Shown: piece after piece, positions 553 through 55,989 of the stretch | Position numbering within the stretch: the first letter of the stretch is position 1 | Layout of the letters: the number at the start of each line of letters is the position of its first letter | Source: an uncultured bacterium | GTDB taxonomy: Bacteria > Muiribacteriota > Ozemobacteria > Ozemobacterales > Ozemobacteraceae | Length of the DNA stretch: 64,000 bases | Direction: 5' to 3' | Assembly (NCBI GenBank): GCA_900317935.1 | Contig: ONIU01000007.1 | Coordinates: 1 to 64,000 of the forward strand | The notes under the pieces: model-generated | What the model was told of the DNA's origin: nothing | Seen by the model: the letters and a program-made list of their open reading frames with translations, nothing else | The model's database searches: none | Position numbers and translations under genes: made by a program

Positions 553-563
553 AGGAAAATGAG

Positions 564-2297: not shown

Positions 2298-2299
2298 AT

Positions 2300-3790: not shown

Positions 3791-4153
3791 CCAAGAGGGA
3801 AGCCAAGTGAAGCTTGGCAAGGGAGAAGAGAGAAGAGCCATAATGCTCTGTGGAAAGAGTGGGACTGTTGCGGAGTAACTTGTGAGACGACTGTTTCACA
3901 GCCTGTGGTAATCGACTAATAATTCTTACAAGCAACGTCTGTCGCCAATTATTAGCAATAAGTAATAATCTTGTGTGAAAAATGCACATAAAATCTAGAG
4001 TGATTTTTTCACTGTGTACATAATTTTGTATATTTTTGTTAAGAAAAAAATCTAAAATCTTGACTATTTAGCTATTTTAATTTTATATATTGCTGGCATA
4101 TATTATGCGGTCAAAAAGCAAATATTTCTTTTTTAAGAATTTAGGAGATAATA
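3791..4153 (+). other. 363-bp intergenic region with hairpins and a motif set shared with 33347-33540
   Basis: No convincing gene. Near the left end are two small hairpins: 3802-3818 (GCCAAG / CTTGGC) and 3833-3848 (AGAGC / GCTCT), neither followed by a T-run. Further right are GTGAGACG, GCCTGTGGTAAT (about 3902-3913) and GTGAAAAATGCACAT (about 3976-3990). The same short blocks occur in the same order, with different spacing, upstream of the minus-strand gene at 33346. A sigma-70 type promoter follows at 4060. The region could hold a small RNA or a worn repeat. Confidence 0.4.
4060..4089 (+). promoter_or_regulatory. Putative sigma-70 promoter of the EIIA gene
   Basis: TTGACT (4060-4065), an 18-bp spacer and TATATA (4084-4089) lie about 65 bp before the start codon at 4154. 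This was read by eye; the AT-rich context makes other -10 choices possible, for example TATTAT just downstream. Confidence 0.5.
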
Positions 4154-4603
4154 ATGATTTCAGAATTACTTCAGGATAATTTCATTGATTTGAATCTTGA
4201 TGTTCCTGATAAAGCTACAGCAATAAACAAATTATCTGGAATGCTTTGTGGTTCTGGTAAAGTTAGTGACCAGAATCATTTTGTTAGTGCAGTTTTAGAA
4301 AGAGAAAAACTTGGAAGCACCGCTATTGGAGCTGGAATAGCTATACCTCATGCAAGAGCTAATACTGTTAATGAAGTATCTATAGCCTTTGCCCGTGCTG
4401 CTCATGGAATAGATTTTAATTCAGTAGATGGTGACCCTGTGAATTTGATATTCTTATTAGCTGCTCCAGTAGAATCAGGAAGTCTTTATTTGAAGCTTCT
4501 TGCTAGAATTTCAAGACTTCTTCGCTATCAAGATTTGATAGATGATTTGAAAAAAGCTACAACTAAAGAAGAAGTTATTAAGATAATAGCAGCGAAAGAA
4601 TAA
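4154..4603 (+). CDS. PTS EIIA domain protein of the fructose/PtsN (nitrogen) type
   Basis: 149 residues, the usual length of a stand-alone EIIA-Ntr domain. The phosphorylated histidine is H66 in the motif AIPHAR, preceded by STAIGAGIAIPHA as in PtsN/FruA EIIA domains. The end (KLLARISRLLR...LKKATTKEEVIKII) also fits. A strong ribosome binding site (TTAGGAGA) precedes the ATG. No sugar permease is adjacent, so a regulatory role is more likely than transport. The neighbouring sigma-54 regulator and RsbW-like gene agree with a signalling setting. Confidence 0.88.
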   Translation: MISELLQDNFIDLNLDVPDKATAINKLSGMLCGSGKVSDQNHFVSAVLEREKLGSTAIGAGIAIPHARANTVNEVSIAFARAAHGIDFNSVDGDPVNLIFLLAAPVESGSLYLKLLARISRLLRYQDLIDDLKKATTKEEVIKIIAAKE

Positions 4604-4706
4604 TAGCTTCAATCTATATAGTCTATATAGTTTTTCCCTTAAAATAAAAGGAATGAATGTTAGTAAATCATTTTACTAATATTAGAAGGAAGATTTGTTT
4701 TAAATT

Positions 4707-5135
4707 ATGTCCAATAATCGGCAGGATGATTTATCTTTTCACATGAGAATACCAGCAGATAAGTGCTTCACCAAGAATGCACTTCTTTCTTTAGATGGTA
4801 TTTGTGATCATTTCTGTTTTACAGAACATTCAAGGGACCGAATTAAAAAAGCTTTAGAGACAGCTCTCAATAATTCTATAGAAATTGTATATCAGAAAGA
4901 ATCTGGTTTATTTGAACTGCAGTTTTCTATTTATAAAAACAAAATGATGATTACGGTCGAAGATTATCCCCTTAATCCTGAAGGAATATCTGATAATATT
5001 GATTCTAATTCTGATGATATTAAAAACATGTTGAGTTCTGTTAAAGACTTAACAGATGGTATGTCTTTTGTTAACAAAAAAGGCAGAATAAGCTGTTATT
5101 CAATGTCTTTTGATATTAACTATATAGAAAATTAA
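4707..5135 (+). CDS. Degenerate RsbW/GHKL-like regulatory protein
   Basis: 142 residues. The layout matches anti-sigma factor type GHKL ATPases such as RsbW and SpoIIAB: an N-terminal strand (FHMRIPAD), a helix with an N-box-like stretch (KKALETALNNSIEIV, where RsbW has AVxEAxxNAxxH), and a strand ending in VEDYP where the G1 box (DxGxG) should be. The box glycines are missing and the G2 region is hardly visible. It may bind a partner without ATPase or kinase activity. The ATG lies some distance behind AGAAGGAAG, so a start a few codons away is possible. The assignment is by pattern only. Confidence 0.5.
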   Translation: MSNNRQDDLSFHMRIPADKCFTKNALLSLDGICDHFCFTEHSRDRIKKALETALNNSIEIVYQKESGLFELQFSIYKNKMMITVEDYPLNPEGISDNIDSNSDDIKNMLSSVKDLTDGMSFVNKKGRISCYSMSFDINYIEN

Positions 5136-5199
5136 TAATGTTTCGGTACCCTCTTGAACTCTAATTGCTGATGTACTAATCTATATCTTCAGAAAATCA

Positions 5200-5229
5200 G
5201 AAACCCCGAAATGGTTTTCGGGGTTTTTA
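5200..5229 (+). terminator. Rho-independent terminator
   Basis: AACCCCGAAA, a short loop, then TTTCGGGGTT and a T-run form a strong hairpin about 70 bp after the RsbW-like gene and just before the AsmA-like gene. Confidence 0.85.
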
Positions 5230-5253
5230 ATTTATATTCGAGAGAGTAGTTCA

Positions 5254-6873
5254 ATGGAAGTGAAGCCGAAAACCTCAAGAAATTTAATTCTTGTAGTCAT
5301 TTTGATTTTTTCGATATTAGGTGGAATAACCTATTCTTTGCTCTCTTCAGAAAAATTATTCAGTGGACTGTTGTATTTTGCTATAGAGAAATTTGTTGCA
5401 AATGAAAGACTAAGTATAGATTTTAGAAATGTAGAAGGCTGTCTATTAACTGAAATAAAAATCGACCGTGTCGATGTAAAGCACGTCAAACCAAATTTTG
5501 ATGCAAGAATTAAAGATATTACTATAAAACCCGTATATAGCCAGCTTTTAAACAGTGGCACTGTTCAATTTGTAGGTAATGTTGGCAGCGTTGATTGGAC
5601 AGGCAGTTATAAATTACCAGCAGAAGCAGCTTCTATTCCTGCTTTTATTGGAACTGAGTGTTTTGCTGGTATGCCTAACAATATAAGAATCAGCAGTTTT
5701 GATATTAATAATATAAGAATAAAACCTTATACAGACGCAGATTTGATGATATATTCAGAGCATATAGCCTTAAAGGGAGGCAAGGAACCAGATAACTTAG
5801 ATGTCAGCGCTGATTTTAAAGCAGACTGGAAGAGTAAACCTTTAGCTAAAGCTTTGTTTGAAGGTATTTTGAGCCAGAAAAAGAACAAGCTGAACGGTAA
5901 AATAAAACTTAATATTGCTAAGCAGGTTGTTTCTTCTGAATTGTCTTTGGGAAAGGGCAAAAAGGGATTGGAAGTAAGTGGTTATATAGCTTCTGATACA
6001 CAGATTGATCTTCTTCCATTATCTCAGTGGTTAGGTGTTCTCTGGCAGATTGATTATCCTTACGGAGTCAGTGGTAAACTTTATTGTCAGGGCTCTTGGC
6101 TGTATAACTCCGAAATAGGCTTTTTAGGCAATTTAAATGGAAAATACGACAAACTGGATATTTCTGTTATAGGCATTTTCCTCAGTTTGTTAGAATTAAA
6201 TGGTGAATGGAAACTATTTGACGGCAATCTGACTTTCAGCGATAATGGAAGCCGATTGTTAGGTTTCCCGGCATCATTAAACGGAAATATAGAATTTGTC
6301 ACCTCGCCAAAGCGCAAGTGGAATCTTTTGTTTGAATCCAATTCGATACCCTTGGGCCAGTTAACTTCTTCACTGCCCTGGATGATTAAGTATTCTAACG
6401 GTATTCCTGATTTAAATGGAATTGCGACGATTTCCGTCAATTTATTGGGCAACAAACCAATGATTAACGCCAAATTAGATTTGGAAGAACTTTGCCAGAT
6501 TTCTAAGGTAGAACCTATTTCAAAAGTAAGCGGCAGACTTTTATATGCAACTCCTGAAACAGGGAGCGGGACTATAAATGCTAATTTTGAAGTATCAACT
6601 GATAACGGCTTACCTCAGTTTTTTAAGAAATTTTCCGGAAATTTTTATGAACTGGAAAATTCTAAACAGAAAAATAACTACAAATATTCTGTTAATGGTT
6701 CTTTGAATGATAAAATAAAGCTGAAAGGTATTGTAAAAAACCTTGATGGTAAAAGCTTTGAAACAAATGGTGAGATGATAGGGGATAAGTTTTTCTTAGA
6801 TATCCTTTCAAATAATAATCGGGTCTACCGACTTAATTCAGCAGACCCGATTGATTTACTTCTTATGAGATAA
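5254..6873 (+). CDS. AsmA/TamB-like envelope protein
   Basis: 539 residues. One N-terminal membrane helix (about 10-30) is followed by a long beta-rich, periplasmic type region without catalytic motifs. The early segment, LSIDFRNVEGCLLTEIKIDRVDVKH, reads like the N-terminal part of AsmA/TamB/DUF748 proteins, which are repeat beta-groove proteins bridging inner and outer membrane. The C-terminus runs to 6873, next to the convergent surface-protein gene ending at 6874. A specific substrate, phospholipid or protein, cannot be read from the sequence. It supports a two-membrane envelope. Confidence 0.55.
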   Translation: MEVKPKTSRNLILVVILIFSILGGITYSLLSSEKLFSGLLYFAIEKFVANERLSIDFRNVEGCLLTEIKIDRVDVKHVKPNFDARIKDITIKPVYSQLLNSGTVQFVGNVGSVDWTGSYKLPAEAASIPAFIGTECFAGMPNNIRISSFDINNIRIKPYTDADLMIYSEHIALKGGKEPDNLDVSADFKADWKSKPLAKALFEGILSQKKNKLNGKIKLNIAKQVVSSELSLGKGKKGLEVSGYIASDTQIDLLPLSQWLGVLWQIDYPYGVSGKLYCQGSWLYNSEIGFLGNLNGKYDKLDISVIGIFLSLLELNGEWKLFDGNLTFSDNGSRLLGFPASLNGNIEFVTSPKRKWNLLFESNSIPLGQLTSSLPWMIKYSNGIPDLNGIATISVNLLGNKPMINAKLDLEELCQISKVEPISKVSGRLLYATPETGSGTINANFEVSTDNGLPQFFKKFSGNFYELENSKQKNNYKYSVNGSLNDKIKLKGIVKNLDGKSFETNGEMIGDKFFLDILSNNNRVYRLNSADPIDLLLMR

Positions 6874-9675
6874 TCAACTGTTCAATTGTCTAACTTTGGT
6901 TTCAACCTGATTGAGGTTTACGCCCTGACCCTGCAGGAAGTTTTCAAACCACAAAGTGTTGACTCCGTAAGATTTTAATTCGCTTCTATACTCAATAATG
7001 AGCTGTTCTAATTCAATCATGTCTGCAACTCTGAGTTTTTTAGCATTTGCATTCTGCATAGCCTTTAAATTATTGAGTGCGTTATTGATTGCACTGGCAA
7101 ATTCGTATCTTGTAACATTATCATTAAAAGTAAATGGATAAGCGTTAAGAATACCTTTACTAGTAATGTGTTTCATTGATTTGAAAGACCAGTGTTTGGT
7201 TGGAACATACGTAAAGGATGATGTAGAAGTATTGGATGCATTGCTTTTTTGAGCAGCTAATGCAGCACTTTGACCAGGAGTCATTTTTACTTTACTGTCT
7301 ACAAGAGGAATATAGAAAGCAGAGTCGGCTTCAGCGGTTTTTGCTACAGTCGGCATATACTGATTTCTTGTATCAGAAGAAGTAGAGAATGTCCAAGAAA
7401 ATCTCTTAGAAAGCTGTTCACCAGATTTGCTCAAGATTTTGTCGCTAACAATAACTTTGTGTTCTGTTTTTGCTTCAAGAGGTCTTGATGGTTCAAAAAT
7501 AGCTCTGTTATTTCGTTTATCATAGGTTACTTTTCCATCTACTCTTGTCTGATTTGCGAATACAGAGATATTGATGTTATTAATAGTTTTAGGATCACAG
7601 GCTTCAGAGAAATGAACTGCGATTTTTGATTTTCTGGAAATATTATCAGAATTTAAACCTGGATATATTGAAGCAACTTTGAATGCATTGAGAGCCTTAA
7701 CTTCTTCTTTTACAGAAGTTCTGACGGTTTTGTCTGCGCCAGACATATAAGGATTGTTGCTGCGAACCATGCTGTCATTCTGTGGCTGTGTATAAGCCAT
7801 TGTCTGATTGTAGTTGTTCTGATTGGGAACGTTTAGTTGTTGAGCAGCATTTGCTCTTGCATTATCAAAGCTTTCAAGTTCTTGAGCTTCACGCTGTGGA
7901 GTTTTATTGGAAGCAATGCTTTGTGGAGCAGCCATATTTGGAACAGCAGGAGTTGCTGCTGGAGTAATGGTTGCAAACATTGCGTTAATTCCGTTCTTTA
8001 TAGGTCTTCCATAAAGGTCAGTAATTCCTTGAGTTACTACTACTCTGTAATTTTTTTCTGCTTCAAGAAGTCCAATTGGAGTTAGTGTAGCTTGTTTATT
8101 ACCTTTGAAATAATGAATTTTAGCAGGAACTGGGCCAAAATCGTCTTCTAGTCTGAAAGTGAATTCATTTAAGGTTTCTGGTTTTATTTCATCGCTGAAT
8201 CCGATTGTGATTGGCTGAGCAAGATTGGAAACTTTTGCTCCATTCTGAGGAGCAAGTCCTATAAGTTGAACTTGCTGTGCAGTTGGAGTTTGAGGCTGCT
8301 GAAGCTGTTGCTGAGCTCTGGCAACCTGAAGCTGGTTAACAGCATAATTGTTCATATTCGGTTTAAAAGCAGAAGCAGCTTGGTTGTCAAATGGATTTTC
8401 TATATTTGATTGCAAAGCCTGAGCTTTCTGAGCGATATTTTGCTGATATCCGTTTAAGGCTTGGTTAGCGTTCTGCTGCAAAGCTTGGGCATTCTGAGCA
8501 ATGTTCTGCTGATATCCGTTGTAAGCCTGGTTGGCATTCTGCTGTAAAGCCTGAGCATTCTGAGCAATGTTCTGCTGATATCCGTTGTAAGCCTGGTTGG
8601 CGTTTTGCTGTAAAGCCTGGGCGTTCTGAGCAATGTTCTGCTGATATCCGTTGTAAGCCTGATTAACATTTTGCTGCATATTTGCAAAATTCTGGCTTGC
8701 GGTTTGCTGATAGTTGTTCAGGTTTTGACTTAAATTCTGTTGTGTTTGATTCAGATAAGACTGGCTTTGCTGGACAGCGTTGTTGAATCTTGCATTAGCA
8801 TTAGCTATTTGATTAGCTGGCCTTTCTTCTAATTCATGCTGGCTTACTGCTACATCAGAAGCGTTGTCAGAGACTTTAAAAGGAATAAGTGTTTTCTTTG
8901 CAAGCTTTTTCCCAGAAGTAGAAGCAATACTTTTATCTATTGTAATAGCATAAGAAGCATTGGCTTTTAATGCGTTTCTTGGGCTGACTGTGATTGTCTT
9001 CATATCTTTAGACAATTTGTAGTCAATACCGACAGGGCGATTGTTTTCAAAAAGCTGTACTGGTGCTGATTTTAAAGAAGCTATATCTAAGGCTTCAGAA
9101 AAACTTACTTCCATTGGGGAGTCAGAACGAATGGTGCCGATACCCATGCTTGCATTTGTTAATACTAAATTTTTTGCAGCGACATTTTGTTCCTGAGTTG
9201 AAGAATTACTAGCTTTAGAGATATTGGTGGAATTGCTGCTATTGTTTTGAGGAGCTTCACCTAAGTTTGCAGTCTGAAAACTCCAGACTTTTTCTGTGGT
9301 TCTTCCTAATCCATCGTAAAAAGAAACCTGGGCTGTATATGTTTGCCCCTGTGCTAAAGGCTGATTGGCCTTGAACATAATCTGTCGTGCGGCTGGATTA
9401 TAGAATAATTCACCGTTTACTGGTTCTGTTCCGTTGAAAAGATTGAAACTTACATTCTGATAAAAGGATTGGTTGAGTGCTCCGCCAAATTCTACAGTTA
9501 AAGGAGTTTCTGGCGAAATACCAACATCCATATTATTAGGAAAATGATTAATTACATTTATAGCTGTTGTTTCTGCTATATAATTACCGTTACTTATTGC
9601 TGCATTGACTGGTGAACTGTGGCAAACGGCAGCTATTAGTGCACAGAGAAAAGCCGTTCTTGTCCAACGTTTCAT
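6874..9675 (-). CDS. Large secreted surface protein with Big_5-type domains, glutamine/asparagine-rich repeats and SLH-like end
   Basis: 933 residues. A signal peptide (basic start, hydrophobic core, cleavage near NAA) is preceded by AGGAGGT. At least four Ig-like Big_5-type domains are seen, at about 45-135, 170-270, 475-575 and 670-775, each with the form SPxTPLxVxFSExL...TYxVxV. Residues 334-421 are four 22-residue repeats (NQAYNGYQQNIAQNAQAL type). Residues about 840-885 resemble an SLH segment (WSFKSMKHITSKGILNAYP...TRYEFASAINNAL), which in other proteins binds cell-wall polymers. A role in the surface layer or adhesion is inference. Confidence 0.75.
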   Translation of the reverse strand: MKRWTRTAFLCALIAAVCHSSPVNAAISNGNYIAETTAINVINHFPNNMDVGISPETPLTVEFGGALNQSFYQNVSFNLFNGTEPVNGELFYNPAARQIMFKANQPLAQGQTYTAQVSFYDGLGRTTEKVWSFQTANLGEAPQNNSSNSTNISKASNSSTQEQNVAAKNLVLTNASMGIGTIRSDSPMEVSFSEALDIASLKSAPVQLFENNRPVGIDYKLSKDMKTITVSPRNALKANASYAITIDKSIASTSGKKLAKKTLIPFKVSDNASDVAVSQHELEERPANQIANANARFNNAVQQSQSYLNQTQQNLSQNLNNYQQTASQNFANMQQNVNQAYNGYQQNIAQNAQALQQNANQAYNGYQQNIAQNAQALQQNANQAYNGYQQNIAQNAQALQQNANQALNGYQQNIAQKAQALQSNIENPFDNQAASAFKPNMNNYAVNQLQVARAQQQLQQPQTPTAQQVQLIGLAPQNGAKVSNLAQPITIGFSDEIKPETLNEFTFRLEDDFGPVPAKIHYFKGNKQATLTPIGLLEAEKNYRVVVTQGITDLYGRPIKNGINAMFATITPAATPAVPNMAAPQSIASNKTPQREAQELESFDNARANAAQQLNVPNQNNYNQTMAYTQPQNDSMVRSNNPYMSGADKTVRTSVKEEVKALNAFKVASIYPGLNSDNISRKSKIAVHFSEACDPKTINNINISVFANQTRVDGKVTYDKRNNRAIFEPSRPLEAKTEHKVIVSDKILSKSGEQLSKRFSWTFSTSSDTRNQYMPTVAKTAEADSAFYIPLVDSKVKMTPGQSAALAAQKSNASNTSTSSFTYVPTKHWSFKSMKHITSKGILNAYPFTFNDNVTRYEFASAINNALNNLKAMQNANAKKLRVADMIELEQLIIEYRSELKSYGVNTLWFENFLQGQGVNLNQVETKVRQLNS
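8413..8676 (-). repeat. Four 66-bp tandem repeats in the surface-protein gene
   Basis: Four in-frame 66-bp units encode 22-residue repeats beginning QQN and ending AQAL. The middle units are almost identical and the outer ones differ at a few codons. Such a direct-repeat block can change copy number by slippage or recombination without breaking the frame. Confidence 0.9.
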
Positions 9676-27326: not shown

Positions 27327-28646
27327 TACAATGACAGTTATTGTGGAACCGGTTATGCTTCTCCTTTTGAAGAAAGCTCAAGTATTAGTGTTACAAATAA
27401 AACAGAAGATGTTGCTGTTTCTAAAAATTCAGACGATACCAAAGAAGAAAAAAGCGGCTTTTGGTCTTCTGTAGGGAAAATAGCTAAAAAAGGTGCAAAA
27501 GTAGTTGTAGGCGGTGCAAAAGCAGTTAAAGATGTGGCTGTAAGCGGTTATAATAAGGTATCAGGAGCTGTTAGTTCCATTACCAAGAAAAATAAAGACT
27601 ATATCGTAGAATCAATTTTCTTGCCAGGTCATGAAAGTAAAGAAATGGTTTGTCAGGGAATAGCTTATTTACCAGAAACGGTTATGGATGCGGATCAACA
27701 GGGTGATGGTTCTTATTGCAAGTATGTTCTTTTATCGTATTACCCTAAAAATAGTGATCAGCCTTCGCAAATATTGGTTGTAGACAGAGCTTCCAAGAAA
27801 GCTGTAAAACGTTATGCCTTATATAAAGAAAATGGAAAACCTTATACAGGGCATGCCGGCGGTATTGCTGTAGCCGGAAAGTATTTATGGGTAGCTTCCG
27901 GCGGAACTATTTATGGATTTGATGTTCAGGAAATAATGGATTTTATTAAGGATGATAAAACTAAGGCTAAAGCTGTTGACGGTCTTCCAAAGAGCATGGA
28001 TAAGCTGCCCGGCAAAGATTTGACAGCAGTTAAGACTTATTCTGTAGACAGCAAAGCAAGCTTTGTAAGTTTTGATGGAAAATATATTTGGGTTGGAGAT
28101 TTTACGAAGGGAAGCAATTATAAACCAGTAAAGCATCATAAAATTATGGGCAGAAACAATTGGATTGCAGGATATTTAGTTGATTCTGATGGTTATCCAA
28201 CTTCAAGCGTTGAATATACTTATAAAGATGGTGATGATTCAGAAACTGTTCACAAGCCAGATGCCGTAATTGCAATGCGTGAATCTGTTCAGGGCATGGC
28301 TGTATGCGGCGATTATATTGCTTTAACTGTTTCTTATGGTGCTACAAATTCAAAATTAGCTCTTTATAAGAATCCATTAAAAACAGACAGCGAAAAAATT
28401 ACTTATGACCCAGAAGGACAGCATGGAAGATATTCTGTTGATGCTTGGGAATTAGCTGACAAGAAAAACTGGATTGAAACTGTTACTTTACCAGCTGGTG
28501 CAGAAGACTTGGAATATGATGGTGAAAATCTCTATGTAACCTTTGAATGCTCTTCTAAGAATTATAAAACAAAATGGAGATTGAACCCACTAGTCAAGAT
28601 AACGGATGATTTTTATCTGTTTAATCCTCAGGCAATAGTAAAATAA
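27327..28646 (+). pseudogene. Signal-less paralogue of the secreted protein at 28786
   Basis: The open frame runs from 27327 (after a TAA at 27324) to 28646 and matches the next gene over its length, but no ATG lies at its 5' end. The first residues (YASPFEE) match the signal-peptide end of the paralogue (FASPFDE), so the secretion signal has been lost. The first usable start is GTG 27534 (370 residues), with no ribosome site. Shared blocks include GHAGGIAVAGKYLWVASGG, SKASFVSFDGKYIWVGDF and VKHHKIMGRNNWIAGYLVDSDGYPTS. It could be a truncated pseudogene or a cytoplasmic form. The frame is otherwise intact, so the loss is recent or due to assembly. Confidence 0.6.
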
Positions 28647-28785: not shown

Positions 28786-30183
28786 ATGAAAAATAGTTTT
28801 TATAAATCATTAATGATAATTGCATCTTTGATGCTTTTTAATGGTTCAGTAAATAATTGTTTTGCTTCACCCTTTGATGAAGATGGCATTTTTACAAAAG
28901 TAAAAAACGGAGTTGCAGAAAAAGCTGGTAAAGCAAAGGATTTCGTAGTAGATAAAGCCGGTGACGTTAAAGATTTTGTTGTAGACAAAGCTGGAGATGT
29001 TAAAGATTTTGTAGTTGACAAGGCTGGGAACGTAAAAGAAGGGGTAAAAGACTGCTATAGCAATGCTACTAGTAAGATTAATACTCTATTTAATAAAGGT
29101 AAACTTCCTTCTTATGTAAAAGAGGCTATTTTCATACCTGGGCATGACAGTAAAGAAATGATTTGCCAAGGTATTGCTTATTTGCCTGAAAAGGTAATGG
29201 AACCAAGTGAACAGCCGAATGGTTCATATTTTAGATATATCCTTTTGTCGTATTATCCAAAAGAAAGCGATCAGCCTTCTCATTTGGTAGTTATTGATAG
29301 AAAAACTGGTAAGCCAATTAAGCGTTTTCCATTATACAAAAAAAACGGTAAACCTTATACTGGTCACGCCGGCGGTGTTGCTGTAGCAGGCAAATATGTC
29401 TGGGTAGCTTCTGGAAGATGTATCTATGGTTTCAGCACTCAGGAAATCATTAATTTTATATCTGATAATAAGACAAAAGCTGTAGCTGAAGATGGCTTGC
29501 CTGATAGTTTCGATGCTCTTCCTTCATATCGATTGACTGCAATGGCTGATTATGATGTTGACAGCAAAGCCAGTTTCGTAAGTTTTGATGGAAAGTATAT
29601 CTGGGTTGGGGATTTTGCAAAGGGAATCGGTAAAGAATATAGTCCAATAAAGCATCATAAGATTATGGGTAAAAATGCATGGGTAGCCGGTTATCTTGTT
29701 GATTCTGATGGTTATCCTACTTCAACAGAAGAATATTCTTACAAAGATGGCGATGATACTGAATATGCACATAAGCCCGATGTGGTTGTTGCAATAAATG
29801 ACTTTGTTCAGGGATTGGCTTTTTGTGGTAAATACGTTGCTTTATCTATATCCATGGGACCAATTAATTCAAGATTGGCAATGTACAAAAACCCATTAAA
29901 TACAGAAAGTAAGAAACTTACTTATTCTCCTGCAGGCTGTGATAAAAGTTTTACAGTTGATGCTTGGGGCTTAGGAAGCGGGATATTTAAAAAATCAGTT
30001 AAGACAGTAAAATATTCTTGTGGTTCTGAAGATATGGAATATGACGGGAAAAACCTTTATGTTGCCTTTGAATGCTCTTCTCCAAACTATACTCAATCTT
30101 GGAAGAATATAAATCCGACTGTTAAAATGACTGAAGATTTTTATATTATTGATCCAGAAATTGTCGTAAAAAAAGGTAAATAA
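28786..30183 (+). CDS. Secreted propeller-like protein with three 11-residue repeats
   Basis: 465 residues. A signal peptide (cleavage near CFASP) follows GAAGGAG. Residues 51-83 hold three KDFVVDKAGDV-type repeats, probably an amphipathic stalk. Residues about 105-465 have repeated strands with W/Y and small residues, such as GHAGGVAVAGKYVWVASG, KASFVSFDGKYIWVGDF and EDMEYDGKNLYVAFECSS, which suggests a beta-propeller. I do not recognise a named family. It is intact and paralogous to the signal-less frame upstream. Confidence 0.75.
   Translation: MKNSFYKSLMIIASLMLFNGSVNNCFASPFDEDGIFTKVKNGVAEKAGKAKDFVVDKAGDVKDFVVDKAGDVKDFVVDKAGNVKEGVKDCYSNATSKINTLFNKGKLPSYVKEAIFIPGHDSKEMICQGIAYLPEKVMEPSEQPNGSYFRYILLSYYPKESDQPSHLVVIDRKTGKPIKRFPLYKKNGKPYTGHAGGVAVAGKYVWVASGRCIYGFSTQEIINFISDNKTKAVAEDGLPDSFDALPSYRLTAMADYDVDSKASFVSFDGKYIWVGDFAKGIGKEYSPIKHHKIMGKNAWVAGYLVDSDGYPTSTEEYSYKDGDDTEYAHKPDVVVAINDFVQGLAFCGKYVALSISMGPINSRLAMYKNPLNTESKKLTYSPAGCDKSFTVDAWGLGSGIFKKSVKTVKYSCGSEDMEYDGKNLYVAFECSSPNYTQSWKNINPTVKMTEDFYIIDPEIVVKKGK
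28936..29034 (+). repeat. Three 33-bp in-frame repeats
   Basis: Three copies (28936, 28969, 29002) encode KDFVVDKAGDV, KDFVVDKAGDV and KDFVVDKAGNV. Codons differ between copies, so the repeat is not a very recent duplication. The amphipathic 11-residue period fits a helix. Confidence 0.9.
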
Positions 30184-30328: not shown

Positions 30329-33300
30329 TTAGGCTTCTTTTTTGTTTAAGCCACCGTTTCTGCCATATTTAGCATGTGCGTTAGTGAATTCATCTGATGC
30401 CATAGCACCTGTGATTGATATTTCACCAGCAAGAACAGTTGCAGCAAGAATTTCAGCCAGTTTCTTAGCTTTACCAGGACCAGCACACTGCATTATTTCT
30501 AAGCATTTCTTTTGGGTTGGAAGTCTAGTTCCGCCACCAACAGTGCCTACCATAATGTCTGGTAAAGTTACGCTTATCTGCAGAGCTCCGTCTATAAGCT
30601 TCATATAGGTAACACCACAAGCAGATTCTGCAACACATGCTGGGTCTTGTCCAGCGGCTATATAAACTGCTGCCAGCATATTGGCGTAATGAGCTTGAAC
30701 TCCGAAAGAATGAGCTTGTAATGAAGTAATCATGGTTAATTCACCAAGTCGGATAATTCTTTCTGGAGTAGTATGCAGGAACTGTTTAACTAAATCTGCA
30801 GGTATTCTAACTACTGCAACAACTTTCTTTCCGCGGTTTCTTGTGAAGTTAACGGAGTTAACTTTTTTATCGCCAGAAAGGTTGGATTCTAAGAACCAGT
30901 CATAGATTGAGCCATCATATGCATTAAGAATATAATCTATAGCTGCTCTAGTGGCTATGGTAGTCATGTTCTGACCAGAAGCGTCACCAGTAGAATAGAC
31001 TAGTCTTAATACAAGCTGGGTTCCTATAGGATACTGTTCAATAGTTAGAAGTTTGCCGAACTTTGTAGTTGCATCAGCAGATTTTTTGATGCTTGCAAAG
31101 TTGTTTATTATCCATTCAGAGAATTTTTCTAAGTCTGAAAGGGTAGCAAATTCAAATACTGGAGTTCTTATCAAACTATCTTCGAGTATGCGAACTTCTG
31201 CACCGCCAGACATAGTTATAATCTGACAACCACGTGCTACAGAAGATACCAAAGCGCCTTCCGTAGTAGCTAATGGAACATAAAAATCACCATTTGCATG
31301 TTCGCCTTTAACTTTAAGAGGTCCACAAATGCCTATAGGTAATGTTACAAATCCGGCAAAACCTTCTATGTTACCACAGTAAGCTTCTGGGTCATCTGGT
31401 TTTGGAAGAGCAAAATTCTGATTGCCAGTGTAATTTCTTATGAATTTTTGTCTAGCTTCAATAGCTTCTAATGAATAATCAAGAAGCGGAGGCATATCTT
31501 CGTTTGAAGCAGTTTCAGAACGGTTTACTTCTGACATTTTGCTTGTGTCAACCTTAGTAGCTAAGAAAGAGAACAAATCGTCAAAAGTTTCTACAGAACT
31601 GCCTATCAGCTCTTTGAAGGAAATACCGAAACGTTTTTCCAGCTTAAGAAGCATAGCTATGATTCCAAGAGAATCAAGCTGAATGAAAGAGTCTAATCTT
31701 GTAGAAAGCTTAATTTTGTGATAGTCAGCTTTTAAGAAGTTTGCTATTTCTTGTCTGAAAGCTTCGAAAAGCTGTTCATTTCTTGGAGCAGAACTAATTT
31801 CTTCTTGCTTTGGACCAGTTTCTGCAGGTTTATGTTCTTTTCCGCTCAAAGCTTCTGCTAATTCAAAGCGTTTAACTTTTGTGCTGGCAGAACGTGGAAG
31901 AGGTGAGCCAAGCATGAATATCTTTCTGATTTTTTCTGGTTCTGGCCAATCTTCTGTTTGAGCTCTAAGGTCAGCTTCAACATACTTTAATACATCTTCT
32001 GATGCTTTACCTTCAAATACGCCTTTTCTTGGAACAAATGCAAAAGCTGGAACTTCAAGGCCATCAAGAACTATGCCGAAAATAGAGTATTCTTCAGCAT
32101 ATTTCAAAGTGCCGAGTCTTACTTCCAGTTCATCAGGATAAACATTTACACCGGAACCAGAGATAATAACTTCTTTGGCTCTGCCGCGAATATAAATATT
32201 ACCTTGTTCGTCAATAGAAGCTAAATCGCCTGTTTTAAAATAGCCATCTTCAAACAGAGTCTGATCTAATTCTGGTTGATTGTATATACCGGACAACAAA
32301 GTCGGTGAAGAAATCAGAAGTTCTCCAACTCCATTAACAGGATTATTGATTTTGACTTTAACTACTTCTAATGGTTTACCAATAGAATTTGGAGGACAAT
32401 CACCACCATTAAATATAATACCTGCTGCGGTTTCGGTCATACCAAAACCTTGGGAGATCTTAACGCCTTTGCTAGCAAGGAACATAATTGTTTTGGGATT
32501 TGGAGCTGCACCACCAACTACTATATCTATTGGTGGCAGTTTAAAATCTGGATTCTGCATGAAAGACAGAGCTAAGAGATCGCATAGTCTAGGAACAGCA
32601 AGCAAGAATCTGGATTGATACTTCATTATCAAACCGAACATTTCTGCCGGATTGAGAGTATTGCATAATATATTGGTACAATGCCAATATAACGGGGTGA
32701 TTCCAGAATCTACTAATGCAAAAACATGGCTAAAAGGTAATATAGTAACAATTTTATCTCTTGGTACACAATGAACGAGATTTTTTGCATTTTTTGCAGA
32801 TTCAATCAAGGCTCTATGGCTAAGCATAATTCCTTTTGGTCTGCCAGTTGTCCCAGAGGTATACATTAGAGCAGCTATATCGTGAGGTTTAACTTCTCTG
32901 TCTGCAGGAGCATGGGATGTGCTGTTACCTTTAACTAATATTTCGTATTCGTCTTCGAATATAAATTTGGCTTTATAATCTTCAGGGATATATTGATTGA
33001 ATCTCTGAGAATATTTGCGCATCATTATAATGACAGCTGGGTTGCTGTCTGCTAATATTGACTGAAATCTGTCTAATGCTGTATTCCCATCTAATGGAAC
33101 AGCAATTCTGCCAGAACTGGCTATACCTATAAAAATAGGCATCCAAAACAAATGATTTTCAGTTACCATGAGGACTCTTTCACCTCTATTAATGGCAACT
33201 CTATTAAGAACTTCTGCTATTTCTTGTGATTTTTCTTCAAACTGCTGATAATTTAATTTAGTAACCTTACCAGCTTGTTCAAATATAATAGCATCTAAAT

Positions 33301-33346
33301 CAGCAATTTCGCTGATATTCTGGATTTTCAGAGTATCTCCAAACAT
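30329..33346 (-). CDS. Fused acyl-adenylating enzyme, acyl carrier protein and HMG-CoA reductase
   Basis: 1005 residues in three modules. Residues about 1-500 are an ANL-family AMP ligase: P-loop MYTSGTTGRPKG (161-172), QGFGMTET (299-306), TGDLASIDEQG (372-382) and the catalytic Lys K490 in RSASTKVKRFEL. Residues about 525-597 are an acyl carrier protein with Ser559 in the LDSL motif. Residues about 620-1000 are class I type HMG-CoA reductase: TTEGALVSSVARGC with E696, GDASGQNM with D788, K827/K828 in SGDKKVNSVN, the GTVGGGTRLPTQ segment, and H991 near the end (NAHAKYGRN). All catalytic residues are present. This enzyme makes mevalonate in isoprenoid synthesis. The fusion suggests a carrier-bound substrate. 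AGGAG precedes the ATG at a rather long distance. Confidence 0.9.
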   Translation of the reverse strand: MFGDTLKIQNISEIADLDAIIFEQAGKVTKLNYQQFEEKSQEIAEVLNRVAINRGERVLMVTENHLFWMPIFIGIASSGRIAVPLDGNTALDRFQSILADSNPAVIIMMRKYSQRFNQYIPEDYKAKFIFEDEYEILVKGNSTSHAPADREVKPHDIAALMYTSGTTGRPKGIMLSHRALIESAKNAKNLVHCVPRDKIVTILPFSHVFALVDSGITPLYWHCTNILCNTLNPAEMFGLIMKYQSRFLLAVPRLCDLLALSFMQNPDFKLPPIDIVVGGAAPNPKTIMFLASKGVKISQGFGMTETAAGIIFNGGDCPPNSIGKPLEVVKVKINNPVNGVGELLISSPTLLSGIYNQPELDQTLFEDGYFKTGDLASIDEQGNIYIRGRAKEVIISGSGVNVYPDELEVRLGTLKYAEEYSIFGIVLDGLEVPAFAFVPRKGVFEGKASEDVLKYVEADLRAQTEDWPEPEKIRKIFMLGSPLPRSASTKVKRFELAEALSGKEHKPAETGPKQEEISSAPRNEQLFEAFRQEIANFLKADYHKIKLSTRLDSFIQLDSLGIIAMLLKLEKRFGISFKELIGSSVETFDDLFSFLATKVDTSKMSEVNRSETASNEDMPPLLDYSLEAIEARQKFIRNYTGNQNFALPKPDDPEAYCGNIEGFAGFVTLPIGICGPLKVKGEHANGDFYVPLATTEGALVSSVARGCQIITMSGGAEVRILEDSLIRTPVFEFATLSDLEKFSEWIINNFASIKKSADATTKFGKLLTIEQYPIGTQLVLRLVYSTGDASGQNMTTIATRAAIDYILNAYDGSIYDWFLESNLSGDKKVNSVNFTRNRGKKVVAVVRIPADLVKQFLHTTPERIIRLGELTMITSLQAHSFGVQAHYANMLAAVYIAAGQDPACVAESACGVTYMKLIDGALQISVTLPDIMVGTVGGGTRLPTQKKCLEIMQCAGPGKAKKLAEILAATVLAGEISITGAMASDEFTNAHAKYGRNGGLNKKEA

Positions 33347-50147: not shown

Positions 50148-52784
50148 TTATTTCTTTAAACTTTTTAATAATCCTAAATAGTTTTTCAATATGTTTGTAA
50201 TAAAATCGACCTTTTTTGTAAGCCATTCATAAAGATTATCAAAATCTGTTGAAATATAAATCATATCTTTAACATATTTCATCTTTATATTGGTCACTAG
50301 TCCCTTTTTATTAGCTTTCATTTTGAATCGGAATAATCTTCCGGCTATTTTTCTTAAATTTTCTTCACTTTCTTCTTTTCCTGTAGTAGCAATTATAAAC
50401 TCATTTATTCCGTTTTCGCCAAGTTTATAACTTGCTTGAAGTTTTTCAAAAGGTTTAAAAGGATTTTTTATAAATCCATTTATTATTTTTGGAAATCTGT
50501 TGTGGAATGCTTGATTGTCATAATAAAATTCCATAGCGTAGTTATCTTTGTATGGAAGCAATGATTCTAAGCTAGCTATTGTTTCTTTTGAAATAGGATT
50601 GAGAGATATATAAACAGAATTATCTGTAGTTTGGAAATAATATTTCCCTGAAGGGAATAAGTAAGAAATAGGCTTTTCTTCTTGGCTTATTTCTTTTGAT
50701 GCTGCAATACAACCGTATCCAGAGATTAATCCGTCTTTAATATCTTTGCTGGACAAAGTTTTGGAAGATATTCTGATTATGGCTGATTTATGAGCATTAA
50801 CCAATCTATCTAATATAATAGTTACATTACATTTGCATAAGTCTTTTATATTTGGCAAAAAAACTGAAAGCTTTTTAAAGAAATCGGAACAAAAACTGAT
50901 TGCTACCGGATAATCAATTCCGCTTGGCAATAAAGCATTTTCTAAGTCATCGCTTTTTTCGGATTCGTCTAATTTCTCAGTTGAGTTTTCTGGAATTGCT
51001 TTTTCATTGTTGATTTCCTTAGTTTGTTCTAAGGGTTTTTCTTCTTTGGAAATTGGGCGGATTTCTTTATTTTTGTTTGAAGAATATAATTTATATGTTC
51101 CAAGAAGAGGTTCACTTAACGTTTTTGCTCCAGTATTCAAATCAGAGCATAACTTAGTAATTGCAATTGATTTTTCATAAAGTCCTTCTTCTTGATAAAG
51201 TCTGGAAATGCCCATTAATATGTTTAGAACTTTGTTCATGTCGGCTCTATCGCCTAATAGACCATGATAATTAGCCATAGCTTCATGATAAGCTTTCAAT
51301 CTAATGGCTAAATACAAAGTTTCATCCGGGTCATTCATGTTTGGATTAGCTTTAAAAGCTTCTTTTACAAAAGCAAGAGCTTTGTCGAACTCATCCTTAT
51401 CTAGATATACTCTTCCTATATGCAATAAGATTTCGCTTTGAGCTGGAACAAGTGTATTAGCTTTTTGTAGATAAATTAATGCATTGTCTAAATCGCCATT
51501 GCGATAATAAGCCCAACCGAGAGTATCTAAATATGAAGCGTTGTTGGGTTCAAGCTTATTGGCCTTCTTAGCCATAGTTAAAGATTTTTCGTTGTTAATG
51601 TTTAACTCTGTATATAAATAAGCCAGATTATTTAAGGTTTCTGCAGAATCCGGTCTTAATTTAATAGCTTCTTCATATTGTTCGGCTGCTTTTTCGTAAT
51701 TGTTGTTGCTGTAATATAAAGTTGCAAGATGGTATCTTGATTCATATATTGAGCCTTTTAATGCTATAGATTTTAGTAGAGCTTCTTCTGCCTTTTTAAA
51801 ATCTTTGTTTTTAAATGCTGCCCAACCAAGACTATCTAGAAATCCTGGATTATCAGGAGATTGATCAACCGCTCTTTGGCAAAGATCTACTGCTAGGCCA
51901 GTATTGACTCCATATTCTGCGTAAAGATACCCAAGATTATTAAGTGCATAAGGATTTGCGGGAGCTATTTCAATTATTTTTTTGTAAACTGCTTCTTCAA
52001 GCCAGAATGGTTCTTGTTTGCCTTTTGCCTGATATTCTTCGTGTAGCCCCATGTAAATACTTAATAAAGTATTTTGTAATTTTTGATTTCTTGGGTCTAA
52101 AGAAGCTGCTTTTTCATATGAAGCTATAGATAAAAATAGAGCTGAGTCTGCATTTCCCAAGAATCTGAAGCATTGCCCCATTATATAATAGTATTGTGAT
52201 GTTCTTGGAATGAGTGTTAAAGCAATTTTTAAATCTTCTTCAGGTTTCATTAAAGCAAAGTAGCTGTTATCTTTGTTTTTTAATTCCTGAAAAATAATGG
52301 CCTTAGCTATCCAATAATCTGCGGATTCTTGTAAATCTTCTTCGTAATCAAGAAGGACTTCTTCAAAATGCTGTTCATCTTTGAATTCAGAATCATCTTT
52401 TTTGTTGTTGCAAAGCATCACGCCCGTATAAAATATATTTCTAAGCTTATCTTCTGTTGAAGCTTTGTTCGGGTCTTTGATTGAAAAATAATCATTCCCA
52501 GATTTAATCAGTTCAGCATGCTTAGGGGTATCTGAAAGCTTTATTAGATTGAACCATCTGTTTATGGCATGATATTGTGCAATTACATTGCCTTTATGTT
52601 CAAGAATATACTTTTTTAGTAACTGGAGGTTGTAATCGGCAGGTTTGGTTTTTTCAAAATTAATTTCATTCTGTCGGAATAAAGGTAAACCAAAATCAAA
52701 ATTTATTTCAGCCTTTATTATATTAGCTGCAAAAACAAAAAATGCAGTTAGAAAAAGTATCGTACAAAAAGATTTCTTGAACAT
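50148..52784 (-). CDS. Large secreted TPR protein
   Basis: 878 residues with a signal peptide (cleavage near NIIKAE). About ten TPR units cover roughly residues 190-500 (NPYALNNLGYLYAEYGV and SYLDTLGWAYYRNGDLDNALIYLQKA types). A charged low-complexity linker (about 570-620) leads to a C-terminal domain (about 625-878) that I do not recognise. GGAGG precedes the ATG. It follows the tubulin-like gene behind a terminator. Confidence 0.82.
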   Translation of the reverse strand: MFKKSFCTILFLTAFFVFAANIIKAEINFDFGLPLFRQNEINFEKTKPADYNLQLLKKYILEHKGNVIAQYHAINRWFNLIKLSDTPKHAELIKSGNDYFSIKDPNKASTEDKLRNIFYTGVMLCNNKKDDSEFKDEQHFEEVLLDYEEDLQESADYWIAKAIIFQELKNKDNSYFALMKPEEDLKIALTLIPRTSQYYYIMGQCFRFLGNADSALFLSIASYEKAASLDPRNQKLQNTLLSIYMGLHEEYQAKGKQEPFWLEEAVYKKIIEIAPANPYALNNLGYLYAEYGVNTGLAVDLCQRAVDQSPDNPGFLDSLGWAAFKNKDFKKAEEALLKSIALKGSIYESRYHLATLYYSNNNYEKAAEQYEEAIKLRPDSAETLNNLAYLYTELNINNEKSLTMAKKANKLEPNNASYLDTLGWAYYRNGDLDNALIYLQKANTLVPAQSEILLHIGRVYLDKDEFDKALAFVKEAFKANPNMNDPDETLYLAIRLKAYHEAMANYHGLLGDRADMNKVLNILMGISRLYQEEGLYEKSIAITKLCSDLNTGAKTLSEPLLGTYKLYSSNKNKEIRPISKEEKPLEQTKEINNEKAIPENSTEKLDESEKSDDLENALLPSGIDYPVAISFCSDFFKKLSVFLPNIKDLCKCNVTIILDRLVNAHKSAIIRISSKTLSSKDIKDGLISGYGCIAASKEISQEEKPISYLFPSGKYYFQTTDNSVYISLNPISKETIASLESLLPYKDNYAMEFYYDNQAFHNRFPKIINGFIKNPFKPFEKLQASYKLGENGINEFIIATTGKEESEENLRKIAGRLFRFKMKANKKGLVTNIKMKYVKDMIYISTDFDNLYEWLTKKVDFITNILKNYLGLLKSLKK

Positions 52785-52863: not shown

Positions 52864-55800
52864 TTAGCCAAGTGTTGTTGTTTGTCGCTGACTAAGTATA
52901 GTATTGAACTGATCGTTGTAATCCTGAAGTATCTTGAGAATGCCTCGTTTAATAGAGAGAAGTTCATCGCTTGAAGCCTTAACTTCATGATTCTTTTTAA
53001 TTTCTTGTTCTATAGCTTCTTCTATTCTCTTAACTTTTGCAGCTATGAACGGCAGGTATCTGCGTACAAATTCGCATTGTTTCGGGAATGGAAGTGTTTT
53101 CCAATATTCATTATAAACTGTTCTGATTAAATAAAGACCCATTGTATTGTTCTTCAAATAATCAAAGAGTTCAATTAATGTTCTGCCCATTGGCTGAGGT
53201 TTATCCTGCTGATACCAGAGTTCAAACTGTACTAATTCAGGATTAAATTCTATACCGTGTTTGCCAAGCTTTTCGTTAGCCATTAATTCATATCTGAGAA
53301 GCAGGTAGACCATGTAGTGTTCTTCCAGTTTCTTAGCAGGAATAAGGCTGTAGCTAGCCCAAAGTATAGGATAAGCATCATTGTTCAATATTGCATGACA
53401 ATTGATCTTTGCGTTATTTTTGCGGTAAAGAGTGTGCCACTGAGCTATTGAACTTAAATTGTATGGAGCAATACCATGCAAAGTCTGTAAAAGACTTATT
53501 TCATAAGGATTTCTTGTTGGGGCTATAGAAACTCCAATGTCGCCTTTGCGCAAAGTATCTTTGATTTCTACAGCTAGTTGGCTGTTTTCATCTGCAATAC
53601 CTAAGGTTACTATATTCATTCTCTGTGGCTGATTGTTGCCGCGGTCATTCAAAGTAACCAAAGGAGTAGCCTGATTCATCAGACTTTCGACAAGACTCTT
53701 CTTGAAACCTTTCTTTTCTGAATCTTTCCAATGAATGAAATCTTCGATTCCACCAAAAAGTCTGCGCTGAATAACGTTTCCGCAGTATTTAATGATTTCT
53801 TCTTCCAGATTGCAGGTTTCGTGATCTGTGTATTTATCCCAGTTCTTTTTAAGATCTAATTTGACTAGGAAATCACCTTCTATGTCGTTATTGGTTAAAT
53901 CACCTAGCAAATACTTGTAGAAGGGTTCTATGTCTCTTTCTTCAAAGATGTAAGTTCTTATGAACTTCTGAACTTTTGAATATGGTTTAATTAATTCTAG
54001 ACATCGTTCGTAAGCACGTTCCAGATTACCGTCTTTAGAAATCTGATTAAGCTTGAAATTGAATACTTCAAGTTTCTTGCGGATATTCTGAGCCTGAACG
54101 TTCAAATACTTCAAGAAATCTTCTACACAAGTCATGCAGAACATTTCGTATTCCATATCGTTGGCTTCTTTGCTTTCTTTTAAGAAAGAGTCTTTGTCTT
54201 CTTTTAGCTGAGTACCGAAGAATGCTTTCAATTTAACTCCAAGACCAGTAAATCCGGTTAACTTATCTTTTAATCTAGTACATTCTTCAACAAATTCACG
54301 CTTTTCTTTATCTAATTTCCCTCTGATTTCTGTAACTTTACGAGCCATCTGATCTTTTGGATATCTTGTCAGATATTTTTCAAAAGCTACTAGGAAATCA
54401 ATTGCTACCTGAGCGCCTAAGTCTGGATTGTTAACTATTTCTATAACTTTATCTTTTAAGCTAAGACCAGCTTTTGATGCTGCTTCTTCAAATTTCACAC
54501 GAAGCTGAGCTCTCATATCATCTTTCTTGATATGGTCATTATTAGTTTCTTCTATTTGTCTCAAAAGAAATTCGTAGTCTTTTTCTTTAGGTTTTGGTTT
54601 ATTAGAAATCTTGATAGAGTGAAAACGAGGATTATCCCAATAGTCTTTTCTGTTGACTATTTCTTTACTTAAAATCAAGAGACCTTCTGGAGTAAGGTCT
54701 AATACACTTGGATTGTTTTCTGCAAAGTCTTGAACCATTGAATCAAGAAGAATTCTGTCCATAGATTGCTTTAACCAGTAATTCACATCCATAGAGAGCT
54801 TATATGTATATAAATCTCTGATTATGTCTAGTGGATAGTAAAAACTCTTAAAACCTGCAGAACTGAAGCATTTAAGCTGTTTGCCTTCAAGATCTGAGTT
54901 GAGTTGCCCAAGAATCTGAGAAGCATTGTCCAACATTGAATTCTGAGCTTGGCGAAGCTGTGTGGCAAGCTTTGTAAAGATTAGTTCTGAAGCAATAGCA
55001 TAATATGTTGGGATATCATCCATATTGCTTGTGCCTAGCAAATAACACTGGTCAAATGGAGGTTCTTCTGCAATAGTGCCGTAAGTGGTTGAATCATTGC
55101 TTTTCCCAATTGGACCATAGTTAACCATAAACTTATTACGTCTGTCTTGAGCAATAATGTCTTTGGCTGACTGTGTTGGTGGGAACTTTTCTTTGTTCAT
55201 GAAATAGTAGGTTTCAGCTAATGCTGCATATCCGTTACCTTCTATTCTGCCTGTAGAGTTAACGTTTGGATCTATGGCAATCTGAGTGAATGCTTCAGGT
55301 GTTAGCTCTATACCTATAATAGATGGCTTGCCTTTTCCACCAGAAAGCTGATAATAAGCCATTTTCAGCAAGTAGGCCATATCCATGAACATACCGGCGC
55401 CAGAACCACCGCACATTGAGCCTACTACATAGAATTCTGGAGTCAGAATCTGGCCCTGTTTGTTGGTAAGGGGAACAATTATATCGTCCTGATTAACATT
55501 ACCACGAGCCATGATTTTGCTTATCTTGCTCTTTAACAGAGAAAAAATCTTCTGGATATCTACAAAAATACCAAATCTGCCTGTGAATCTGAATTGATGA
55601 GCACCTTGGCTTATTTGTCCAATATATGATTTTAACTTTTGAGGGAACCATTCATAGAGGTAGCCATATGTGTCGGTATCTAGATTATTGGTAATCTGAC
55701 CAGCATTCTGGATGTTAATCTGATGGTATTCACTTTCTTTTAGCTTAATAGCAGGGTCTGCTTCTTCTTTTTCTGATTGACTTGCATCGAATATGTCTGT

Positions 55801-55989
55801 ATCTATGCAGAGCAAATCAATAAAATCAGGTAAAGCTGGTTCGCTTCCGCTTTGTTCATACGCTTTTCGTATTTGTGGACTCTTCAAGAAAGTTTCTTTG
55901 AAGTTCATAAGAGCTTTTTTACCGGTTCCACCAAGACCTACTATTAAAGCCGGATTCAAAGCTATTCTGTTTTCAAAATTAACGCTCAT
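52864..55989 (-). CDS. Large tubulin-like GTPase-fold protein (Tubulin_2 type)
   Basis: 1041 residues. The N-terminus has VGLGGTGKKAL (17-27) and the tubulin signature loop GSMCGGSGAGM (190-200), where tubulin has GGGTGSG and FtsZ GGGTGTG. QFRFTGRFG (132-140) also fits bacterial Tubulin_2 proteins. The remaining 800 residues are mostly helical, with coiled regions about 560-690. It probably binds GTP and may polymerise, which is inference. The size is about twice that of tubulin. It is followed by the TPR gene. Confidence 0.8.
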   Translation of the reverse strand: MSVNFENRIALNPALIVGLGGTGKKALMNFKETFLKSPQIRKAYEQSGSEPALPDFIDLLCIDTDIFDASQSEKEEADPAIKLKESEYHQINIQNAGQITNNLDTDTYGYLYEWFPQKLKSYIGQISQGAHQFRFTGRFGIFVDIQKIFSLLKSKISKIMARGNVNQDDIIVPLTNKQGQILTPEFYVVGSMCGGSGAGMFMDMAYLLKMAYYQLSGGKGKPSIIGIELTPEAFTQIAIDPNVNSTGRIEGNGYAALAETYYFMNKEKFPPTQSAKDIIAQDRRNKFMVNYGPIGKSNDSTTYGTIAEEPPFDQCYLLGTSNMDDIPTYYAIASELIFTKLATQLRQAQNSMLDNASQILGQLNSDLEGKQLKCFSSAGFKSFYYPLDIIRDLYTYKLSMDVNYWLKQSMDRILLDSMVQDFAENNPSVLDLTPEGLLILSKEIVNRKDYWDNPRFHSIKISNKPKPKEKDYEFLLRQIEETNNDHIKKDDMRAQLRVKFEEAASKAGLSLKDKVIEIVNNPDLGAQVAIDFLVAFEKYLTRYPKDQMARKVTEIRGKLDKEKREFVEECTRLKDKLTGFTGLGVKLKAFFGTQLKEDKDSFLKESKEANDMEYEMFCMTCVEDFLKYLNVQAQNIRKKLEVFNFKLNQISKDGNLERAYERCLELIKPYSKVQKFIRTYIFEERDIEPFYKYLLGDLTNNDIEGDFLVKLDLKKNWDKYTDHETCNLEEEIIKYCGNVIQRRLFGGIEDFIHWKDSEKKGFKKSLVESLMNQATPLVTLNDRGNNQPQRMNIVTLGIADENSQLAVEIKDTLRKGDIGVSIAPTRNPYEISLLQTLHGIAPYNLSSIAQWHTLYRKNNAKINCHAILNNDAYPILWASYSLIPAKKLEEHYMVYLLLRYELMANEKLGKHGIEFNPELVQFELWYQQDKPQPMGRTLIELFDYLKNNTMGLYLIRTVYNEYWKTLPFPKQCEFVRRYLPFIAAKVKRIEEAIEQEIKKNHEVKASSDELLSIKRGILKILQDYNDQFNTILSQRQTTTLG

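Follow-up and report, generated by a model that had tools for sequence, protein, structure and literature searches.

In the genome of a rumen bacterium, a Candidatus Riflebacteria, we found one gene that joins an acyl-AMP ligase, an acyl carrier protein (ACP) and a reductase with the HMG-CoA reductase (HMGR) fold in a single chain. We favour, with reasonable confidence, its reading as a self-contained carboxylic-acid-to-alcohol reductase, which would take an acid through acyl-AMP and acyl-S-ACP to an alcohol and would serve a lipid rather than an isoprenoid pathway. The fusion is a new arrangement of known parts and not a new mevalonate route.

Three domains in one chain

Within the window (the whole stretch of 64,000 nucleotides that was analysed), the gene is a single uninterrupted frame, alone on its strand between a paralogous gene pair and an M20 peptidase gene, with the following features.

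30329–33346, minus: whole gene, acyl-AMP ligase–ACP–FcrA-type (HMGR-fold) reductase, 1005 aa
31832–33346, minus: acyl-AMP ligase (ANL superfamily, apparently FadD-like), residues 1–505 (PF00501, E 8.5e-61)
32831–32863, minus: ligase P-loop YTSGTTGRPKG, residues 162–172, invariant in 20 aligned homologues
32429–32452, minus: ligase motif QGFGMTET, residues 299–306, invariant in 20 aligned homologues
31877–31879, minus: ligase catalytic Lys490, invariant in 20 aligned homologues
31529–31786, minus: ACP domain, residues 521–606 (PF00550 barely above cut-off; AlphaFold2 helix bundle)
31670–31672, minus: Ser559, predicted phosphopantetheine site (LDSLG), invariant in 20 aligned homologues
30347–31474, minus: HMGR-fold reductase domain, FcrA type, residues 625–1000 (PF00368, E 6.2e-109)

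Pfam places AMP-binding at residues 18–355 and HMG-CoA_red, with the class-I HMG-CoA-reductase fold, at residues 628–996. These matches, the intact frame and the same architecture in relatives bear out the proposal of a first-pass annotation that the three domains share one chain, and the ligase and carrier motifs that it had located (YTSGTTGRPKG, QGFGMTET, K490 and Ser559) are correctly placed. Because the architecture recurs in 22 Riflebacteria genomes, the fusion is not an assembly artefact.

By NCBIfam, the ligase is similar to long-chain fatty acid ligases. Against PDB entries it scored 142 bits with FadD13 and 85 bits, over part of the domain, with 3kxw, which we take to be a FAAL structure, and by these scores it looks FadD-like rather than FAAL-like. 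Amino-acid adenylation, hinted at by the formyltransferase-like neighbour described below (cf. linear gramicidin synthase), was judged less likely because NCBIfam ranks acyl ligases above it and the A4 region is acyl-ligase-like by eye.

The ACP domain is short and divergent and gives a weak profile match (21.2 bits against a cut-off of 20.8, for an excised 88-aa stretch), but it is real. Its LDSLG motif is invariant in 20 of 20 aligned homologues and reads FDSLG in G004, an outlier outside that alignment. AlphaFold2 (overall pLDDT 71.8, pTM 0.48) models helices at residues 521–538, 559–573 and 588–598, at low confidence in this part of the chain; Ser559 is the first residue of the second helix. 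The dN/dS values measured within the window's genus (ligase 0.05–0.08, ACP 0.01–0.03, reductase 0.02–0.04) place all three domains under purifying selection.

Residue signatures of the reductase domain

An alignment of the fusions' reductase domains with HMGR from human and archaea, to which standalone bacterial proteins were added, located the following residues in the window protein.

31259–31261, minus: catalytic Glu696 (human E559)
30887–30889, minus: Glu820, replacing HMG-binding Ser684 (FcrA signature; PMC11948995)
30866–30868, minus: catalytic Lys827 (human K691)
30734–30736, minus: Thr871, replacing HMG-carboxylate-binding Lys735 (PMC11948995)
30644–30646, minus: catalytic Asp901 (human D767)
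30386–30388, minus: Phe987, replacing Leu862 (bulky residue, FcrA signature)
30374–30376, minus: catalytic His991 (human H866)

Equivalents of the catalytic four (human E559, K691, D767 and H866) are kept in 22 of 22 fusions. The catalytic residues proposed earlier agree with this for E696, K827 and H991 but not for D788, which is the NADPH-site aspartate (human D653), the catalytic one being D901. At the three signature positions, human S684 is replaced by E in 21 of 22 fusions (D in G004), K735 by A, S, T or G, and L862 by F in 21 of 22 (L in G004). Replacements at the same three positions are reported in the text of Grossi et al. (2025; PMC11948995) for FcrA, an HMGR-homologous fatty acyl-CoA reductase that was shown there to use NADPH to convert acyl-CoA of C14 or longer into alcohol and to leave HMG-CoA unreduced; the lysine is printed in that text as Lys795, which is probably Lys735. 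Simvastatin at 10 uM had no inhibitory effect on FcrA. The window protein resembles FcrA in its catalytic residues, in E820, T871 and F987, and in belonging to a clade apart from canonical class-I HMGR.

Changes at the human CoA site of the window protein are N567 to A, R571 to Q and K722 to H. CoA-binding positions are variable across FcrA-like proteins generally; Asn567 is replaced in all 22 fusions and kept in Lad-type FcrA-like proteins, but its replacement is not exclusive to fusions. Because some standalone relatives share such changes, we dropped them as proof of carrier dependence.

In the G004 fusion (L065 8529–11297, 923 aa), the P-loop and A10 lysine of the ligase are gone and the ACP motif is retained; its reductase shows the further changes K692 to S and N755 to D, with L862 kept. 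Among standalone proteins, the HMGR of L069 retains S684, K735 and L862 and lies in a mevalonate-type gene cluster (neighbours judged by eye). Another standalone HMGR-like protein (L068 386–1573), with R590 replaced by V and S684 by P, is encoded beside an enoyl-CoA-hydratase-like frame (by eye) and may be one more HMGR paralogue that acts on a different substrate.

Distribution and phylogeny

The closest named matches, at 91–93% identity, are Candidatus Riflebacteria from goat, rumen and reindeer samples, and a collection scan with the full protein returned three genomes of the same genus and one ligase-only match. HMG-CoA_red matches occur in 23 of 40 Riflebacteria genomes, comprising 22 fusions and one contig-edge fragment (G038). 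The ligase–ACP–reductase chain, for which a search of other genomes had been proposed, thus recurs in 22 of 40 Riflebacteria genomes, confined to families f1 and f5 among those searched, and fusion identity ranges from 40 to 93% across the 20 aligned homologues. Outside Riflebacteria, no HMGR match in 382 genomes, mostly of other phyla, had an open frame longer than 826 aa, so the full fusion was unseen elsewhere in this limited sample.

Our tree included Lad-type proteins and no experimentally characterised FcrA sequence. With long-branch rows removed, fusions and Lad-type FcrA-like proteins split from canonical HMGR with support of 100/98, and the fusions form one clade (98/95), beside which the standalone L108 and L141 proteins branch with weaker support (90/80 and 83/71, respectively); with the long rows included, the fork to canonical HMGR is weaker (87/89). 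The Lad-type proteins of L102, L103, L104 and L106 are FcrA-like by residues. That of L102 (L155:3286–4839) carries the Pfam domain HMG-CoA_red_N, which we infer to be the N-terminal extension of the FcrA paper.

Gene neighbourhoods of standalone relatives and of the fusion

Wax esters and alkylglycerone-phosphate synthase (AGPS) both require a fatty alcohol. In L155, L156 and L157, three genomes with a standalone relative, the HMGR-like gene is next to one for a WS/DGAT wax-ester synthase, and in L141 it lies in an operon with genes for a FAD-linked oxidase, two PlsC-like acyltransferases and an SDR. The best NCBIfam match of this oxidase, below cut-off, is glycolate oxidase GlcD; its MKWWGWG start suggests that it is probably of the AGPS type, and the operon probably one for ether lipids. 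In L154, a UbiA-like gene shares the contig with the HMGR-like gene.

Outside the window's genus, most Riflebacteria that carry the fusion have, directly after its gene, one for a 252-aa formyltransferase-like protein, which conserves N, H and D where its catalytic triad would be expected. The formyltransferase-like, UbiA-like and OleC-like proteins are each encoded by 18 of the 22 genomes with the fusion and by 2 of the remaining 18, both incomplete assemblies (Fisher p 1.7e-5 for each of the three, a value that ignores phylogeny). Co-localised with them, together or in separate clusters, are genes for PEP-synthase/PigC-like, MMPL exporter, DUF3419 (BtaA-like) and LolA-like proteins, at the following loci.

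L051, 8974–12763: lipid gene set
L053, 8572–19900: lipid gene set
L064, 328–8522: lipid gene set
L116, 3369–12460: lipid gene set
L124, 4231–12340: lipid gene set
L170, 2–13105: lipid gene set
L171, 2–12207: lipid gene set
L172, 1397–8855: lipid gene set

Judged from its genes, this conserved Riflebacteria set looks like an uncharacterised exported-lipid pathway. DUF3419 has been linked to betaine-lipid synthase, as in the annotation of one paper, and it also occurs in families f7 and f8, both of which are without the fusion. Two such f7 genomes (G034 and G037) share a lipid-type cluster of UbiA-like, PEP-synthase-like, MMPL and DUF3419 genes (L167 and L169) that is accompanied by a gene of the NAD_binding_4 (fatty-acyl-reductase) family, found in L167 (cluster 47–9651) and as a partial copy in L169; in L166, the third f7 member, none was seen at this position. 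The gene seems to stand in for the fusion as a non-homologous replacement.

The four genomes of the window's genus keep the fusion, but close homologues of its formyltransferase-like, UbiA-like and OleC-like partners were not found in them, nor was any DUF3419 match over cut-off or any AGPS-like or WS/DGAT match. Wax-ester synthesis was set aside for Riflebacteria, with no WS/DGAT match in 40 genomes in a search where no control genome gave a match either. An AGPS-type ether lipid was likewise set aside, strong AGPS-like matches being confined to families f7 and f8, with none in fusion genomes; weaker matches elsewhere resemble glycolate-oxidase-type relatives.

Proposed reaction and alternative readings

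In the reaction that we propose, the N-terminal domain, with P-loop and K490 intact, would adenylate a free acid with ATP, long-chain fatty acids being the likeliest substrates, and the acyl group would then pass to the phosphopantetheine arm at Ser559 of the ACP. The FcrA-type domain would reduce the resulting acyl-S-ACP with two NADPH, in two hydride transfers, to a primary alcohol, E696, K827, D901 and H991 acting in HMGR-type chemistry, and the alcohol would feed a lipid pathway and not isoprenoid synthesis. This final reduction is modelled on FcrA and HMGR, and we infer the identity of the acid, self-loading of the ACP, release of alcohol rather than aldehyde, and the fate of the product. 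Since the characterised FcrA takes acyl-CoA and has a Lad domain and no ACP, a carrier-bound rather than CoA-bound acyl substrate is suggested here by architecture and constraint. The first-pass annotation had proposed that the ligase loads the ACP and that the reductase takes the carrier-bound thioester. The conserved active-site residues of the three domains and the recurrence of the fusion in 22 genomes lend that much of its scheme inferential support; HMG as the acid is not supported.

Mevalonate-pathway genes, which it had suggested looking for, point the same way. A search for HMG-CoA synthase (PF08540) in which the control set gave matches returned none from the 37 relatives, the window's own genome included; the MEP-route gene lytB, by contrast, is carried by 31 of the 37 and by 17 of 17 good-quality genomes. 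In the window protein, the positions of Ser684 and Lys735, the mark of a canonical HMGR, are E and T. Because HMG-binding residues are replaced and HMG-CoA synthase matches are absent, we reject a role in HMG reduction or the mevalonate pathway; reduction of carrier-bound HMG to mevalonate is highly improbable, even with an HMGR fold, its catalytic residues and equivalents of Arg590 and Lys692 retained in nearly all fusions. The fusion is thus like canonical class-I HMGR in fold and catalytic residues, and unlike it in its HMG-binding positions, in the company of HMG-CoA synthase and in clade.

Two further readings keep the fatty-acid or lipid context. The ligase might make acyl-CoA for direct use by the reductase, with the ACP merely an accessory chain carrier, which would fit the FadD-like scores of the ligase, the reduction of acyl-CoA by purified Pb-FcrA and the suggestion, in the text of the FcrA paper, that a fused ACP may mimic the Lad carrier domain (PMC11948995). 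We consider this unlikely: the ACP serine is invariant, dN/dS of the ACP is the lowest or near-lowest of the three domains, the ligase–ACP–reductase order is that of covalent channelling, and the replacement of Asn567, though found beyond the fusions, extends to all of them. The same ligase–ACP–reductase logic could instead act on an acid other than an ordinary fatty acid, one special to the lipid cluster of Riflebacteria. Co-occurrence of the fusion with formyltransferase-like, OleC-like ligase and UbiA-like proteins would agree with this, as would fusion genomes in which WS/DGAT was not found and no AGPS-like match was strong; however, FcrA signatures and ligase type both indicate long alkyl chains and the cluster's steps are putative, and we rate a special acid as quite improbable. 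For the preferred acid-to-alcohol reductase, a wider role is possible, though on balance doubtful, as an HMGR-fold reductase on carrier-bound acyls that supplies an undescribed exported lipid in most fusion-bearing Riflebacteria; this lipid would be built by the formyltransferase-, OleC-, UbiA-, PEP-synthase- and BtaA-like enzymes, with the MMPL exporter and LolA-like protein.

Comparison with known systems

The statement that the pathway has no precedent does not hold. FcrA, ACP-fused FcrA, ElbD and carboxylic acid reductases of the CAR type each offer one, the last two with a different reductase fold. The fusion shares with FcrA the reductase fold, the catalytic four, S684 to E, K735 to a small residue and L862 to a bulky one, genomes without the mevalonate pathway, and relatives beside wax-ester or ether-lipid genes, but it adds an acyl-AMP ligase and has no Lad domain. 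ElbD of Myxococcus xanthus likewise combines acyl-CoA-synthetase, ACP and fatty-acid-reductase parts in a single chain, for ether lipids; its reductase is FAR1/FarA-like and N-terminal, whereas that of the fusion is HMGR-fold and C-terminal, and it carries an AGPAT/PlsC-like acyltransferase that the fusion lacks. Pfam found neither an ElbD-type FAR-like domain nor a PlsC-like acyltransferase on the window chain. CAR (A-PCP-R) enzymes adenylate an acid, load it onto phosphopantetheine and reduce it with NADPH. The fusion has the same domain order and logic, with an adenylation domain followed by a phosphopantetheine carrier, but in CAR the R domain is an SDR of the NAD_binding_4 type with aldehyde as its product, and alcohol is expected from the HMGR-fold domain; the window chain gave no NAD_binding_4 match in Pfam, its C-terminal domain being PF00368.

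The text of PMC11948995, apart from its domain figure 4B, which lies outside this comparison, mentions ACP fused to several bacterial FcrA and names neither Riflebacteria nor a ligase–FcrA fusion. Relative to that text, what is new here is the fused ligase, the conserved Riflebacteria ligase–ACP–FcrA chain and its link to an uncharacterised lipid gene set. With the fusion, the recently described FcrA family would gain a ligase–carrier–reductase architecture, and a further reductase fold would be seen in the role of the CAR and ElbD reductase domains. Bacterial "HMG-CoA reductase" annotations can be lipid reductases, and such a match is no proof of a mevalonate pathway. In a phylum that has seen few experiments, the fusion is also a marker for the uncharacterised lipid genes, and conversion of free fatty acid to alcohol by one protein could have biotechnological use.

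Other genes in the window

The paralogous pair beside the fusion gene (27534–28646 and 28786–30183, plus; 370 and 465 aa) is also paired in G002; the 370-aa member has no Pfam match, and the 465-aa member has LEA-like VVDKAGDVKDF repeats, below cut-off. A 933-aa protein (6874–9675, minus) combines Big_5 Ig-like repeats with an apolipoprotein-like stretch below cut-off. Farther along the window, a 1041-aa Tubulin_2 (tubulin-like) protein (52864–55989, minus) neighbours an 878-aa TPR protein (50148–52784, minus), and an ion channel of the plant symbiosis channel family, which has TrkA_N and a middle domain of the Castor/Pollux type, is encoded at 61419–63122 (plus).
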